This document shows positions 17,415 through 24,111 of a stretch of DNA of 32,744 bases, in pieces (positions within the stretch are counted from its first letter, which is position 1; every line of letters begins with the position of its first letter). A program made the translations under genes and the position numbers. Under the pieces are notes generated by a model that was not told the DNA's origin, made no database searches, and worked only from the letters and a program-made list of their open reading frames with translations. The DNA is taken from contig JAEMQU010000015.1 of the NCBI GenBank assembly GCA_016463705.1, positions 1 to 32,744 on the forward strand, written 5' to 3'. The stretch comes from Opitutales bacterium (GTDB taxonomy: Bacteria; Verrucomicrobiota; Verrucomicrobiia; Opitutales; UBA953).

Positions 17415-18161
17415 GTGGCGTCTCTGGCTACATTCGACCGCAAGAAAGGTAATGGAAGACCAGGGATTGCGGGTCTGGATGAAGCCGGACGAGGATCACT
17501 TTGCGGCCCCGTGGTAGCCGCAGCTGTTTTACTGGATGCAGGATTCTACGGAGAACCCACTTGGATTCGTCGACTCAAAGGCGCTAACGATTCTAAAAAA
17601 CTTTCCCCATCTAAACGGAGCGACTTGCATCAAGTTATTTTAGAGATGCATGAAGAAGGAAAGCTAAAAGCGGTTTGGGCGGAAGCATCGGTGATGGAAA
17701 TTTCTGCCCATAATATTTTAGGAGCAACCCGTATCGCCATGGGTCGATGTATGACGAGTCTAGCCCAAGGGGCTCTCGCTCCACTCTTCCCTGCCGCGGG
17801 AACTGAAGGCGAATTATTCGGATGGCGTGATGAGAAGAATTTTTTAGTCCTCGTTGACGGACTTCCCTTACGCCCTTTCACCTGGGCGCATGAGGCCGTT
17901 AAACAAGGTGACGGAAAAAGCCTCGCCATTGCCCTAGCGTCCATCGTCGCAAAAGTGGAACGCGATAAATTGTTAATTAAGATGGAGGAAAAGTATCCAG
18001 AGTATGGCTTTGCGACCCACAAAGGTTACGGAACGCTTGAGCACGCGAATGCACTGCGAAAATATGGTCCCTGCCCCGAGCATCGTGATTTATTTATTCG
18101 CGGAATTTTAGCAGGTGAGGATCCGCCGCCCGACTCACATCCGGAATTTGATTTTAATTAA
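17415..18161 (+). CDS. rnhB: Ribonuclease HII
   Basis: 248 residues from a GTG start. Removes ribonucleotides from DNA and cleaves RNA-DNA hybrids. The HII motif GLDEAGRGSLCGP (20-32, Asp22 and Glu23) is clear. NDSKKLSPSKRSDL, VLVDGLPL, KSLAIALASIVAKVERDKL and the conserved GYATHKGYGT-like segment (YGFATHKGYGTLEH) follow. The HII arginine (GRG) distinguishes it from the GKG of the HIII gene before it. The GTG lies 3 bases after the rnhC stop. The TAA stop shares the palindrome TTAA (18158-18161) with the stop of bioC on the other strand. Confidence 0.94.
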   Translation: MASLATFDRKKGNGRPGIAGLDEAGRGSLCGPVVAAAVLLDAGFYGEPTWIRRLKGANDSKKLSPSKRSDLHQVILEMHEEGKLKAVWAEASVMEISAHNILGATRIAMGRCMTSLAQGALAPLFPAAGTEGELFGWRDEKNFLVLVDGLPLRPFTWAHEAVKQGDGKSLAIALASIVAKVERDKLLIKMEEKYPEYGFATHKGYGTLEHANALRKYGPCPEHRDLFIRGILAGEDPPPDSHPEFDFN

Positions 18162-18859
18162 AGCGCAACGGCATCGACCAAGAGCCACGCCCATGTCGCG
18201 ACCACGCCACCCGACTTAGGGTGTAAGCGGTCGTAGTCTTTAATCAGTGACTTTAAATTACCCGACGACATGCGTGGCGCGCCCGTGACGCCACTGCCGT
18301 GTAAGGCTCTAAATAAATCAATCGACGAAGGATAAATTTCCTGCGATTCCAAAACTCCGTTAGCGCGTACATCAAATTGAGCGCTTTGTAATATTTGTAG
18401 CCACTGATCTTCGTCGCGCCAATGCAAGGGTCCCTCGCCCATCAAATCGCGAAGCTCAAATAAGCAAGGATCACAGGGTACACCTAGGAGCAAACGCCCT
18501 TGGTCCGGCAGAGCATCATGCCAGTTACGTAAAACCGCCACAGGATCGGGCGCCCAATGTAATAGACCGGATGATGCTAAAGCTTTCGCTTTGGGTATTT
18601 TTGTAAAAGCATCACGCACCTTCCAATCAGCCAGTGGTGCGTTTTGTCGGCCTAGTTCCACCATCGAGGAAGAATTGTCGGTGGCTTCGACGGCGGCACC
18701 TTGAACCAATAAAGCATTCGTTAAAAAACCAGTACCTGCGCCCAACTCAGTAATTTCAGCACCACGGGGAAAGGGAGCAAAAGCAGCTAACGCTTCGGCG
18801 AAACGACGCTGGGGAGCAGCGTGTTGATCATAGGTATGTGCACGTTCGTTGAAGCGCAT
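18158..18859 (-). CDS. bioC: Malonyl-ACP O-methyltransferase
   Basis: 233 residues. Methylates the free carboxyl of malonyl-ACP so that fatty acid synthesis can build pimeloyl-ACP methyl ester, the start of biotin. A class I SAM-dependent fold is visible: motif I ITELGAGTGFLTN, then the acidic end of strand 2 (AVEATDNSSSM), and SSGLLHWAPDP, the usual BioC LHW segment. It opens with FNERAHTYDQHAAPQRRFAEAL, as BioC does. The position as last gene in the bio operon supports the call over a general methyltransferase. It starts 3 bases after the hydrolase gene. The TAA overlaps the rnhB stop. Confidence 0.88.
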   Translation of the reverse strand: MRFNERAHTYDQHAAPQRRFAEALAAFAPFPRGAEITELGAGTGFLTNALLVQGAAVEATDNSSSMVELGRQNAPLADWKVRDAFTKIPKAKALASSGLLHWAPDPVAVLRNWHDALPDQGRLLLGVPCDPCLFELRDLMGEGPLHWRDEDQWLQILQSAQFDVRANGVLESQEIYPSSIDLFRALHGSGVTGAPRMSSGNLKSLIKDYDRLHPKSGGVVATWAWLLVDAVAL

Positions 18860-18862
18860 GTG

Positions 18863-19477
18863 TTAGTTTGTGTTATCAGCGAAAAAATCGCTGAGGTTAT
18901 GCCCTAAGCCATCTACAATTTGGCAGCCGACGATAGATTGGCAAACTCCGTCAGGGTTTAATAATGAATCCTCCGAACCCACATACGCCTCCCAGCCACT
19001 CGGTAATCCCTGACGACAAAAACTAATCAGCGAGATTCCTGCGGGTTGAGATAAAATTTCTAAACCTTTTAAAAGATTTTCTGATTCATAAGGCGTCTCG
19101 GAAATATTAGAAGGCGGTAGCCCAGCCCGATTTCGAAAATCGCCCAAAGCATTGGGTAAATCTGTTTTGACTAAACGACTCAACCAACGCACCTGCGTCT
19201 CACTGACTTTTCCACATTTTGAGTGTTCGCTACAGAACGAAGTAAAGGGTGCGATGAGCAAAGCCTTAGCGGGCAACTTAACGCCCCGAGAAGCAGCCTC
19301 TAAAATTAAATGAGCGCCCAAAGACCAGCCAATCACCATGTCGCAACCCACCAGGTTTTCTGCCGCGCCCATGACGGGTGGATAAATTAAATGTTCGGCT
19401 TCAGGGGCATGACTCACCGCTAAGGGTTGCATTTCCTCGAGCGAAATTCCCCACCCGCCGATCCATCCGATTTTCAT
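18863..19477 (-). CDS. Alpha/beta hydrolase of the bio operon, probable pimeloyl-ACP methyl ester esterase
   Basis: 204 residues, an alpha/beta hydrolase by motif: the nucleophile elbow GWSLG (Ser52), a candidate acid at Asp170 (VGSEDSLLNPDG) and His193 (DGLGHNLSDFF). It starts with GWIGGWGISLEEM, like the oxyanion-loop region of BioG/BioH-type proteins. Its place between bioF and bioC strongly suggests it cleaves the methyl ester of pimeloyl-ACP, a role met by BioH, BioG, BioJ, BioK or BioV in different bacteria. I do not recognise it as a clear member of any of these, though the small size without an obvious lid domain is nearest BioG. The ATG overlaps the bioF TGA (ATGA). Confidence 0.75.
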   Translation of the reverse strand: MKIGWIGGWGISLEEMQPLAVSHAPEAEHLIYPPVMGAAENLVGCDMVIGWSLGAHLILEAASRGVKLPAKALLIAPFTSFCSEHSKCGKVSETQVRWLSRLVKTDLPNALGDFRNRAGLPPSNISETPYESENLLKGLEILSQPAGISLISFCRQGLPSGWEAYVGSEDSLLNPDGVCQSIVGCQIVDGLGHNLSDFFADNTN

Positions 19478-20619
19478 GAAGCGACTCCTTTCAGTGTAGA
19501 AATAAATTTTTCGAGGTGCGTTGAGTCTAATCCTCTGCGCAGGGAAATTCTGATACGGGCAGTGTTCACGGGCACCGTGGGCGGACGGATCACCGAAACA
19601 ATAAATCCGGCAGATCTTAAAGCTTCCGCATAATGTTGAGTCTTTTTTACCTCACCAATAATTAACGGAATAATCGGTGAATGAAAATCGGGCGCGGTAA
19701 ATCCTGCCATTCGCAGAGCTGCCCGCCAGTCTCTTGAAAGTTGATGTAAATCAGTTCGTTCCTTTGCTAAATTTTTTGTGCGAGTAATCGCAGCTAACCC
19801 TGCAGCTACGGATCCCGGATTAAGATAGGTGGAATAAATAAACTCTGCGGCGAAATTGATAATCATATTCTTAATAAGAACATCATGACATAACACATAG
19901 GCCCCTTGTGATCCGAGGGCCTTACCTAAAGTGCCCACGACAATATCCGCCGCCGCTCGCACACCCTGCTCTTCCTGCATGCCTGAGCCTGTTTGCCCGT
20001 GCCAACCTGTAGCGTGAGCTTCGTCTAATGCCCAACAAAAATTATAACGCTCTTTCAGTTTCAAAATTCTGGATAAGTCGGGACAGTCGCCATCCATCGA
20101 GTAAACACTTTCCGTCACCACAAATACCACTGCGTCCGTTTCTTTGGATTCCTCTAACATGGATTCTAATATATCTAAATCATTATGCGGAAAACGGCGG
20201 AGGGTGGCTTCGGATGATAAAATTCCTTCCAACATACTCGCATGAATTAATTTATCGGCTAAAACGATGTCCCCTTTTTGCGGTAAGCCTCCCAGCACAG
20301 CGGTGTTTGCCGAAAATCCGGTATTTAAAATAAGTCCATGCGCGTAACCATGCCACTGCGCTAAAGTTTTTTCTAATTCCTGGTGCAATGAAGTATAGCC
20401 GGTGACTAGAGGTGAAGCAGAAGACGAAGCCCCCCACTTATTTACAGCCGAAGTGGCTGCGGCAATCACTTCACTATCGTGACTTAAATTAAGGTAATCA
20501 TTATCCGCTAAATTAATTCGTGCATCGGTGGAGGATCGGACTTTCAAAGTACGCAAAAGCCCATCCGCTTCACGCTGGGCGAGAACTTTCTCCATCCGCT
20601 GAAGCAACTTTCGATTCAT
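19474..20619 (-). CDS. bioF: 8-amino-7-oxononanoate synthase
   Basis: 381 residues. Condenses pimeloyl-ACP (or CoA) with L-alanine to 8-amino-7-oxononanoate using PLP. The PLP lysine is Lys233 in VGTLGKALGSQGAY. Asp199 and His202 (LDEAHATGWHG) and His126 (KLIHASMLEG) are the cofactor contacts. The family opening NDYLNLS and the segment WGASSSASPLVTGY are intact. I chose the ATG at 20619 (MNRKLLQRMEKVL) rather than a TTG two codons earlier: the ATG then overlaps the bioD TGA as ATGA, a pattern also seen with the next gene. Confidence 0.95.
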   Translation of the reverse strand: MNRKLLQRMEKVLAQREADGLLRTLKVRSSTDARINLADNDYLNLSHDSEVIAAATSAVNKWGASSSASPLVTGYTSLHQELEKTLAQWHGYAHGLILNTGFSANTAVLGGLPQKGDIVLADKLIHASMLEGILSSEATLRRFPHNDLDILESMLEESKETDAVVFVVTESVYSMDGDCPDLSRILKLKERYNFCWALDEAHATGWHGQTGSGMQEEQGVRAAADIVVGTLGKALGSQGAYVLCHDVLIKNMIINFAAEFIYSTYLNPGSVAAGLAAITRTKNLAKERTDLHQLSRDWRAALRMAGFTAPDFHSPIIPLIIGEVKKTQHYAEALRSAGFIVSVIRPPTVPVNTARIRISLRRGLDSTHLEKFISTLKGVAS

Positions 20620-21248
20620 GACCAAAATTCAGGATTAAAAATTACTTTCTTATTTTGGTAGGAGGACTCTCCGGCTAACGAAATTTTAGATTGTTTAATC
20701 CCCGTGCGATTGGCTTGAGCGGTTTCAGGTGAAACGGTGCGACTTACCATATTTAACCAAACACCCATGCGTCCGTTATATTTTCTTTTTAAATAAGCGA
20801 CGGAAAGTCGGGCCTGATTGATTGCCCCTAATCTATCTTCTACCACGATGATGACTGCGTCGGGCTTGATTGCGTGAGCAAAGTCGGTCCAATCCAGACC
20901 GAGAGGATCAATGGGGACAGCCAAGCCGCCGGCTCCTTCAATGATTTGATGTTCAGCCGGAGAGACGGCCTGATAAGCTTTAACAATATTCTGGAGTGAT
21001 AATTTTTTTCCTACTTGGGCCGCCGCTGCTAAGGGTGCTTGGGCTGGTCCAAACGAAAAAAGTGTAATCGGGGTCGCCCAATCTCCTGCAGCTTGAGGGG
21101 CATCGGCTGGTCTTCCAGCGCTCACTCCTGATTCAACAGGCTTAATCACTTGAGTGTCGCCCAATTCGGAGAGTTCGCGGGCCAACAACCCTACAACATT
21201 AGTTTTACCAATGCCGGTATCACTGCCTGTGATAAAAATAACGGCCAC
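20616..21248 (-). CDS. bioD: ATP-dependent dethiobiotin synthetase
   Basis: 210 residues, starting at a GTG. Closes the ureido ring of dethiobiotin from diaminopelargonic acid, CO2 and ATP. The P-loop is GSDTGIGKT (8-16). VIKPVESG carries the conserved Lys, and IEGAGGLAVPIDP is the family's glycine-rich signature. It lies two bases after bioB and overlaps bioF by four bases. The C-terminal 20 residues are less conserved than usual for this family. Confidence 0.93.
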   Translation of the reverse strand: MAVIFITGSDTGIGKTNVVGLLARELSELGDTQVIKPVESGVSAGRPADAPQAAGDWATPITLFSFGPAQAPLAAAAQVGKKLSLQNIVKAYQAVSPAEHQIIEGAGGLAVPIDPLGLDWTDFAHAIKPDAVIIVVEDRLGAINQARLSVAYLKRKYNGRMGVWLNMVSRTVSPETAQANRTGIKQSKISLAGESSYQNKKVIFNPEFWS

Positions 21249-21250
21249 GA

Positions 21251-22324
21251 TTAGTGATTATGCGAACAGCCACAATCGTCGGAAGATTCTCCGTCGGTCG
21301 TAGTGTTCATTAATTCTTCAGGATTCGGCCAGCCTGCTGCTTGCGCCTGGGAAGGACTGATTTCACCGCGGTGGACGCGACGAGCCTCATCGGGATGTAA
21401 GGGGTGTAAACCTAAACGCTTCATCAGGTTCATATCCTCTTCGATGTCGGGATTGCCCGTGGTCAAAAGTTTTTCTCCTAAGAAAATAGAATTCGCTCCT
21501 GCTAAATAACACAGCGCTTGGGTTTCTGGATTCATATTCGCGCGACCAGCCGAAAGTCGAACCATTGCCTTAGGCATTAAAATTCGGGCGACCGCAATGG
21601 TACGTACGAATTCAATCGAATCGACAAATTTTCTTCCAGCCAAGGGCGTGCCTTCGACAGCAACGAGGGCGTTGATTGGAACGGAGTCAGGCTGCGGATC
21701 CATATTCGCTAATTCAACGAGCATCTTAAGACGGTCATCCACGGTTTCGCCCATGCCAATAATTCCACCTGAACAAACTTCTAAACCTGCTTTGCGAACA
21801 TTAGATAAAGTCTGGAGACGGTCATCATAAGTTCTCGTGGTAATGATTTTTGCGTAATGCTCACGCGAGGTATCGAGGTTGTGATTATAAACATCGCAAC
21901 CGGCTTCCTTGAGACGAATCGCTTGTGGTTCCGACAACATTCCGAGCGTACAACAAACTTCGAGGCCTAATTCTTTTACGCCCGAAACAGTTTTCAGTAC
22001 GCTATCAAATTGTTTTCCGTCCGACACCCTGCGCCAAGCCGCACCCATACAGAAACGTGAAGCTCCACCCAACTTCGCACGACGTGCATCCACGAGGATG
22101 GTTTCCGTTTCCATCAATGATTCGGCTTCGACGAAGGTATTGTGGTGAACCGACTGCGGGCAGTAGGCGCAGTCTTCTGGACAAGCCCCTGTCTTAATTG
22201 ACTTGAGCGTGCAGAGCTGCACGCCCGCAGGATCTTGGTTGGCTTGGTGTGCCTCCTGAGCCTTGAAAATCAAGGTGTTGAGAGACAAATCGTAGAGGGC
22301 ACGGGCTTGAGTGTGGTTAGTCAT
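21251..22324 (-). CDS. bioB: Biotin synthase
   Basis: 357 residues. Radical SAM enzyme that inserts sulfur into dethiobiotin. The 4Fe-4S motif CPEDCAYC uses Cys48, Cys52 and Cys55. The YNHNLDTS segment, [10 protein letters not shown] and [10 protein letters not shown] (with the Arg ligand of the 2Fe-2S cluster) are all present. The C-terminus ends with a short Cys/His-rich tail (Cys351, Cys353, His355, His357) beyond the usual length. The ATG at 22324 is 7 bases after bioA and has no Shine-Dalgarno sequence. Confidence 0.96.
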
Positions 22325-22331
22325 AATAATA

Positions 22332-23711
22332 TTAAAGATTGGGAATTACATCATCCATCGCCCGTCGTACCGCTTGCACGAGGTGGGTGACTTCAGAGGA
22401 TTGAATAGAAATCGGCGGAACAAATAAAATGGAATCACCGAGTGGTCGAATCACGAGTCCGTGTCGACGTGCGGCTAAAGCGATTTGATACCCCACGCGC
22501 ATATCAACTGTCCAACTTTTTGCAGATGTATCAGCAGGTTTAAAATCAACGGCACCGGTTAATCCGTACTGACGATAACTGGCGATGTTCGGATGATCAG
22601 AAAAATTCTTTTGGATTTCGTCTCCCAGTTGTTGCGCACGTTCTGCGATTTGCCCTGAAGAAATCATGGGGCGAAGTTTTTTTAATGAGGCCAGAGCAAC
22701 GGCACAGCCCAAGGGATTTCCCGAAAAGGTATGTCCGTGGAAAAAGGTGCGGCCTTCAGAAAATTCGCCCTGAAATGCTTCATAAATTTTCTCCGAAGTT
22801 AATGTAGCAGCCAAAGGTAAATATCCGGCGGCTAATCCTTTAGCTAAGCAAAGAAAATCAGGAGCTACACCCTCCTCTGTACATGCGGTCAATGAACCCA
22901 ATCTTCCAAAGCCCGTAAAAACTTCGTCGAGAATTAAATGCACATCGTATTGCTGACAAAGTTGCGCCACGGCTTTGATAAATCCAGCTGGCTGCTGGTG
23001 CATTCCCGCGGCGCCTTGCACACGAGGTTCAAGAATAAGCGAAGCAGTTTGTGAGGCTTGAGATTTTAAAATATTTTCTAATGCTTGAAGCGATTGGGTT
23101 GCGTCTGAGAATTTAATCTTACCTGCACATTCTTCATGGCGCGGTGCCTCAAACATTTGAGAAGGAAAAAGCCAGGGCGAGAAACGTTTATGAAAGGTGC
23201 GATTATCGCCCACGGACATCGTTCCGAAGGTGTCGCCGTGATAAGCACCGGACATCGAAATCACTCCGCGTTTTTCGGGGCGGCCGGTTAATTGCCAAAA
23301 CTGAAATGAAAGTTTAAGTGCGACCTCGACCGCGTTACTTCCATTGTCGGTAAAAAAACACCGGGGAAGCAATCCGTTGGTCAGTCCGGCTAGTTCTTCA
23401 GCCAGCTCAGTCGCCACCGGATGATTCAATCCTAATAAAGTAACGTGCGCTAATTGGTGTAACTGTTTCTCGAGGGCGGCATTTAAATCGGGATCGTTGT
23501 GTCCGTGGACATTGGTCCACACCGATGCATTGCCGTCTAAGTAGCGGCGACCATCACTATCGATTAACCACGAACCTTCGCCGCGCACCAAATGCAGACG
23601 CGGATTAGCCTGATACTCCTTCATCTGAGTGAAAGGATGCCAGGCGTGTTTACTGTCCGCTAAATCAATAGCATCGGTCAAACGACTGGGTGCTGGTGAG
23701 GCAGAGGACAC
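22332..23711 (-). CDS. bioA: Adenosylmethionine-8-amino-7-oxononanoate aminotransferase
   Basis: 459 residues from a GTG start. Transfers an amino group from S-adenosylmethionine to 8-amino-7-oxononanoate, giving 7,8-diaminononanoate. The PLP lysine is Lys291 in [10 protein letters not shown]. Asp262 lies in [23 protein letters not shown] near the N-terminus and [15 protein letters not shown] are typical of BioA. No upstream in-frame ATG is available, and the GTG follows AGGG directly, so the start is moderately certain; the family match begins after about residue 20. This is the first gene of the bio operon, 29 bases downstream of the BirA-like operator. Confidence 0.94.
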
Positions 23712-23739
23712 CCCTAATAACTAAGCCTAAAATCGCCTA

Positions 23740-23771
23740 TTGTTAAGCCTTAAGTCTCCGCGGGTTAACAA
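23740..23771 (-). promoter_or_regulatory. BirA-type biotin operator upstream of bioA
   Basis: TTGTTAAGC (23740-23748), a 14-base spacer and GGTTAACAA (23763-23771) form an inverted repeat with one mismatch. This matches the published BirA binding pattern, TTGTTAAC-N14/15-GTTAACAA in Gram-positives and TTGTAAACC-N14/15-GGTTTACAA in proteobacteria. It lies 28 bases before the bioA start and would overlap the promoter, so BirA charged with biotinyl-AMP could repress the whole operon. birA itself is not in the window, so the regulator is inferred. Confidence 0.78.
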
Positions 23772-23814: not shown

Positions 23815-24111
23815 TTATTCGAAGTCGTAAATCTTAACTGAGCTCCAAAATGTCTTACAGGACTGGACGAAATCCACGTGAATGGGGTCGACCTGGTAGG
23901 CGTCGTGTTCGGCCTGACTTTTGAAAATAAACATTTCTGCGAAGTCATACGAGCTGTCGACGATGGCGCGCTCGGACGGTGTGGGGCGACCGATATAACA
24001 GGACGAGATAGATTTAATTTTATCCAAGCCTCTCAATTTAGTTTCGAACTGTGATCGCTCAGCAGGTGTGAGATCTTTGCGGAGATAGAAAAAGACGAGG
24101 TGGTGAAACAT
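23815..24111 (-). CDS. Dabb-domain (stress-responsive alpha/beta barrel) protein
   Basis: 98 residues, the size of one Dabb domain. It begins MFHHLVFFYLRKDLTPAE, with the conserved His-Val/Leu-x-hydrophobic strand and a helix after it. It continues with SERAIVDSSYDFAEMFIFKSQAEHDAYQVDPIHVDFV, the usual DLALVS-F-s-eeal-aY--hP-H--F pattern. Dabb proteins are dimeric ferredoxin-like folds. Many have no known substrate, some are stress-induced. The gene is upstream of bioA on the same strand, but 103 bases and the BirA box lie between them, so it is probably not part of the bio operon. It is divergent from rsmG. Confidence 0.82.
   Translation of the reverse strand: MFHHLVFFYLRKDLTPAERSQFETKLRGLDKIKSISSCYIGRPTPSERAIVDSSYDFAEMFIFKSQAEHDAYQVDPIHVDFVQSCKTFWSSVKIYDFE

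Follow-up and report, generated by a model that had tools for sequence, protein, structure and literature searches.

The palindrome at positions 23740-23771 of the window, the 32,744-nt stretch of DNA analysed here from an aquatic Opitutales bacterium of a little-studied phylum, is very probably a genuine operator for BirA, the biotin repressor. This assignment is based on its sequence, its conservation in relatives and the presence of a helix-turn-helix (HTH)-bearing BirA in the genome; binding and repression are predicted. The assignment is well supported; the mechanism is ordinary, and the operator is new for this family of Opitutales.

The palindrome and the biotin operon

The site reads TTGTTAAGC-CTTAAGTCTCCGCG-GGTTAACAA and consists of two inverted 9-bp half-sites with N14 spacing, in which only one pair, at position 8 of the half-site, is out of register. 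It is located 28 nt upstream of the GTG start codon of bioA (23711, minus strand), inside the 109-nt gap that separates bioA from a Dabb-domain gene on the same strand (23821-24111). The half-sites agree at 17 of 18 positions, with W at position 5, with the published BirA consensus TTGTAAACC-[N14/15]-GGTTTACAA, from which deltaproteobacterial sites depart at a few positions (PMC545781). The first-pass annotation had recognised the half-sites, spacing and position of a BirA box, and this was borne out. A pattern search of the window allowing up to three mismatches returned 23740-23771 as the sole match, compared with 0.02 matches expected in window shuffles. The same pattern search of the organism's own genome (1.47 Mb, 1,471,295 bases; 94.7% complete) again found this site only, and the reversed control pattern gave no match. 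Further copies, for which the first-pass annotation had suggested a search, for instance before biotin transporters, are absent from this genome at up to three mismatches; BioY is absent from it as well.

The operon is ordered bioA, bioB, bioD, bioF, an alpha/beta-hydrolase-like gene and a bioC-like gene, with adjacent genes lying no more than 7 nt apart or overlapping slightly (Table 1). No family was assigned to the hydrolase-like product in Pfam or NCBIfam searches; its position and motif indicate that it is probably a pimeloyl-ACP methyl ester esterase in the role of BioH or BioG, possibly of an undescribed type.

Table 1. Coordinates of the operon, the predicted operator and promoter elements, and the receptor loci in relatives
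Feature	Position	Strand	Evidence or remark
bioA, first gene of the operon	22332..23711	-	TIGR00508 1.3e-147, above cut-off
bioB	21251..22324	-	BATS + Radical_SAM
bioD	20616..21248	-	AAA_26; TIGR00347 5.9e-23, just under cut-off
bioF	19474..20625	-	TIGR00858 2.8e-109, below cut-off
Small alpha/beta-hydrolase-like gene (204 aa) between bioF and bioC	18863..19477	-	Abhydrolase_6 E 0.021 only; GWSLGA motif
bioC-like methyltransferase, last gene of the operon	18158..18859	-	TIGR02072 2.2e-23, below cut-off
Predicted BirA operator, read with bioA: TTGTTAACC-N14-GCTTAACAA	23740..23771	-	Kept in 40/40 readable relatives
Distal half-site TTGTTAACC	23763..23771	-	TTGTAAACC in 27/38 aligned relatives
Proximal half-site GCTTAACAA	23740..23748	-	Kept, asymmetric base included, in at least 35/38 aligned relatives
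Putative -35 element (TTAACA) within the proximal half-site	23741..23746	-	Inferred; 17 nt from conserved TA
Putative -10 element TAGTTA, 6 nt before GTG	23718..23723	-	Inferred; conserved TA in relatives
Receptor genes with box, genus g199	G393:C100 (L229:3297-6318); G388:C18 (L214); G390:C221 (L213); G389:C37 (L231); G395:C83 (L215)
Receptor loci, distant order	L256 (G222); L257 (G553); L259 (G159); L262 (G312); L260; L261; L263

BirA and the conservation of the box

The genome encodes a single biotin ligase (C46, L002:1240-2223), on another contig than the operon and between genes that, by reading, are nadC-like and coaX-like. The first-pass annotation had predicted a BirA with an N-terminal helix-turn-helix, and the 327-residue product indeed carries an HTH_11 domain at residues 11-58 (Pfam, 3.9e-12), followed by the ligase domain (89-214) and a C-terminal domain. 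Its match to the TIGR00122 repressor domain (3.9e-11) is below the cut-off; the HTH region aligns with the HTH-bearing BirA structures of S. aureus and E. coli, e.g. 3v7c and 1bia. The second PF03099 match in the genome is a lipoate-ligase-like protein that, by reading, has no room for an N-terminal HTH. Autoregulation of birA in this order was considered and rejected, as no box was found within 1.5 kb of birA in any of the 57 loci scanned. In another verrucomicrobial lineage, a box is found where a birA with an HTH begins (L085:1501-1532, G310), and autoregulation is likely there.

A bioA gene was detected at E <= 1e-60 in 46 of the 79 genomes of the window's GTDB family; among named relatives, an Opitutales MAG from Lake Baikal comes closest, with a BioA that is 94% identical. 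In the two genera that have retained the operon, g3 and that of the window, the box precedes bioA in all 40 genomes with a readable upstream region (38 aligned loci, together with G418 and G424). Recurrence of the repeat upstream of bioA in relatives, on which the first-pass reading had been staked, thus holds throughout this set, including relatives with a BioA only 66-74% identical. Wherever the BioA alignment extends to residue 1 or 2, the box is placed 28-31 nt before the start codon. In the 38 regions that were aligned, information content is 1.83 bits per column in the half-sites, 0.98 in the spacer and 0.14 in the 70 nt upstream; the A that precedes the box and the T that follows it hardly vary either.

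That one mismatch breaks the symmetry had been noted before, and the single asymmetric position stands; what required correction is its interpretation, because conservation of the proximal half in at least 35 of the 38 regions marks the asymmetric base as a conserved and not a decayed position. The nearly palindromic site L200 (G404), read in the orientation of the other sites, likewise has GCTTAACAA as its proximal half. In the 38 regions, 17 nt separate TTAACA in the proximal half-site from a conserved TA (TAGATA-like), and the conserved GTG comes 6 nt further on. TTAACA is the probable -35 and TAGTTA the putative -10 element of a bioA promoter that the operator would overlap. With the -10 element only 6 nt before the GTG, transcription would start at about this codon and the mRNA may be leaderless. 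A generic promoter scan called only a plus-strand site here and none on the minus strand. Overlap with the -35 element may be why the proximal asymmetry is kept; relaxed specificity at position 8 would explain it equally well, because this G also occurs elsewhere, in boxes of genus g199.

The sister genus g2 provides a natural comparison. All eight of its BirA proteins begin at the ligase domain, and the missing HTH was confirmed with Pfam in the four examined. Six of the eight genomes have no bioA match; in the two that do (G398, G402), no box was found upstream of bioA, the best scores there being at background level. A weaker site, GTTAAGC-N14-GCTTAAC, precedes bioA in G397 (genus g200), whose BirA retains the HTH region. 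The box is thus kept with the DNA-binding domain of BirA and lost with it, a pattern that agrees with BirA control; since the loss in g2 is one evolutionary event, this co-loss is suggestive and does not amount to a statistic. In other families of the order, BirA of most genomes aligned through the HTH region, and no N14 box within two mismatches was found in the phylum scan; other spacings or a drifted motif may serve as operators there. Applied to Paenibacillus and other Bacillales as a positive control, the box scan recovered the boxes expected upstream of bioA. Two further verrucomicrobial families have boxes immediately before bioB (and bioF) (L093:1501-1532, G323; L089:1501-1532, G186).

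Predicted mode of action and alternative readings

We infer biotin-dependent repression, the promoter position and a single transcript from the arrangement described above. With plentiful biotin, BirA charged with biotinyl-5'-AMP would dimerise, and the two N-terminal winged HTH domains of the dimer would bind the two half-sites. The bound dimer would cover the -35 region of the bioA promoter, and bioABDF-hydrolase-bioC would be shut off as one transcript. BirA would leave the site under biotin scarcity or in the presence of unbiotinylated carrier protein. Operator binding by B. subtilis BirA needs biotin and ATP (PMC4016012).

The predicted operator resembles those of the BirA (group II biotin protein ligase) regulons of E. 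coli, B. subtilis and deltaproteobacteria in its TTGTWAACC half-sites with 14-nt spacing, in its location before bioA or bioB, and in that the HTH-bearing BirA is encoded apart from the operon, with no box near birA. Unlike these regulons, it belongs to a verrucomicrobial lineage, keeps GCTTAACAA as a fixed proximal half and has no other target found in this genome; its overlap with the -35 element of a leaderless promoter is probable. The first-pass statement that regulation of biotin genes is little described outside proteobacteria, Firmicutes and archaea had to be corrected, as HTH-bearing BirA has already been placed in 'several other lineages' (PMC5343134).

Other regulators stand in for BirA in other phyla (PMC5343134). 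Biotin regulators of TetR-, GntR- or Rrf2-type include BioQ, BioR and BioL, and an operator for one of them might resemble a BirA box. We consider this improbable here, because sequence and spacing fit the BirA consensus, the genome encodes a BirA with an HTH, and the box is absent before bioA in g2, the genus whose BirA has no such domain. An intergenic inverted repeat might also function at the RNA level, either as the terminator of the upstream Dabb gene or by serving the bio operon as a riboswitch or leader hairpin. The evidence weighs so heavily against such an element that its probability is close to nil: there is no Rfam match, no terminator was called, the transcript folds no better than shuffled sequences (z 0.52) with the half-sites unpaired, and the half-sites are kept while the upstream sequence changes completely.

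The similarity to the consensus could finally be fortuitous. In the phylum-wide scan at two mismatches, forward sites were no commoner than reversed-pattern control sites, so that a match alone means little. Matches of that scan inside reading frames (L084, L086, L087, L091), and also L095 (G102), were set aside as likely chance occurrences. For the site in the window, this explanation is refuted by the conservation of the box in every readable relative, and the site is also unique in its own genome; a chance palindrome is therefore hardly conceivable. Assignment of the palindrome to BirA remains by far the best reading.

TonB-dependent receptors preceded by BirA boxes

BioY was found neither in the organism's own genome nor in any of the 79 family genomes. 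Searches of nine genomes of genus g199 gave no bioA, and bioB in two only; the HTH region is kept in seven of the eight BirA proteins found. In all five readable upstream regions (G388, G389, G390, G393, G395; Table 1), a box with N14 spacing immediately precedes an orthologous TonB-dependent receptor gene; both 7-bp cores are perfect in three of them, and two have one core mismatch. In G393, the receptor gene is directly downstream of bioB and each gene has its own box, the one before bioB being a perfect palindrome that overlaps the predicted start codon. No receptor was detected in G391, whose BirA lacks the HTH.

Independently, the phylum scan revealed a box matching at 18 of 18 positions before a TonB-dependent receptor gene in G312, a member of a distant verrucomicrobial order; 12 of the 48 genomes of this order gave a homologous receptor. 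Identity between the versions of g199 and G222 is 26% over 617 residues. The receptor gene is directly downstream of birA in G222, G553, G114, G159 and G560, and the two frames overlap in G553 and G159. A box precedes the receptor gene in G312, G222, G554, G315 and G558; in G222 and G553, and in weaker form in G159, one is located in front of the birA-receptor pair. Spacing in this order ranges from 13 to 16 nt, the sites that deviate from 14 nt (G554, G315, G558) being weaker evidence. TonB_dep_Rec scored over its cut-off in G388, G222, G553, G159, G558, G312 and G315, and Plug in G388, whose receptor had no useful match in PDB and NCBIfam searches; the receptors of G390, G393, G389 and G554 have no Pfam match, though they are homologous. 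Reading of the neighbouring frames disclosed no inner-membrane partner beside the receptor.

On the basis of the box and the birA or bioB neighbourhood, the simplest reading is that the receptor is a candidate biotin-repressed outer-membrane transporter of biotin or a precursor. Transport genes are part of known BirA regulons (bioY, yuiG, yhfUTS), as they would be in these relatives; unlike those genes, the candidate uptake gene here encodes a TonB-dependent receptor. We lean towards the view that Verrucomicrobiota possess a BirA-repressed receptor importing biotin or a precursor, and that the HTH of BirA was kept for the receptor where the bio operon was lost. No report of such a receptor was found in the open-access literature searched, and an outer-membrane receptor marked by BirA boxes is apparently undescribed.

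Taken together, these data extend the classical BirA-bio switch, with support at the level of conservation, to a family of Opitutales (Verrucomicrobiota), and link loss of the DNA-binding domain of BirA to loss of its site. If the reading of the receptor is true, the operator survived loss of the pathway because it served a gene for uptake. Passage of biotin across the outer membrane is usually left to porins or not considered; the BirA box acts as a tracer that marks the receptor in relatives and thereby provides a testable candidate for outer-membrane biotin uptake in some Gram-negative bacteria.
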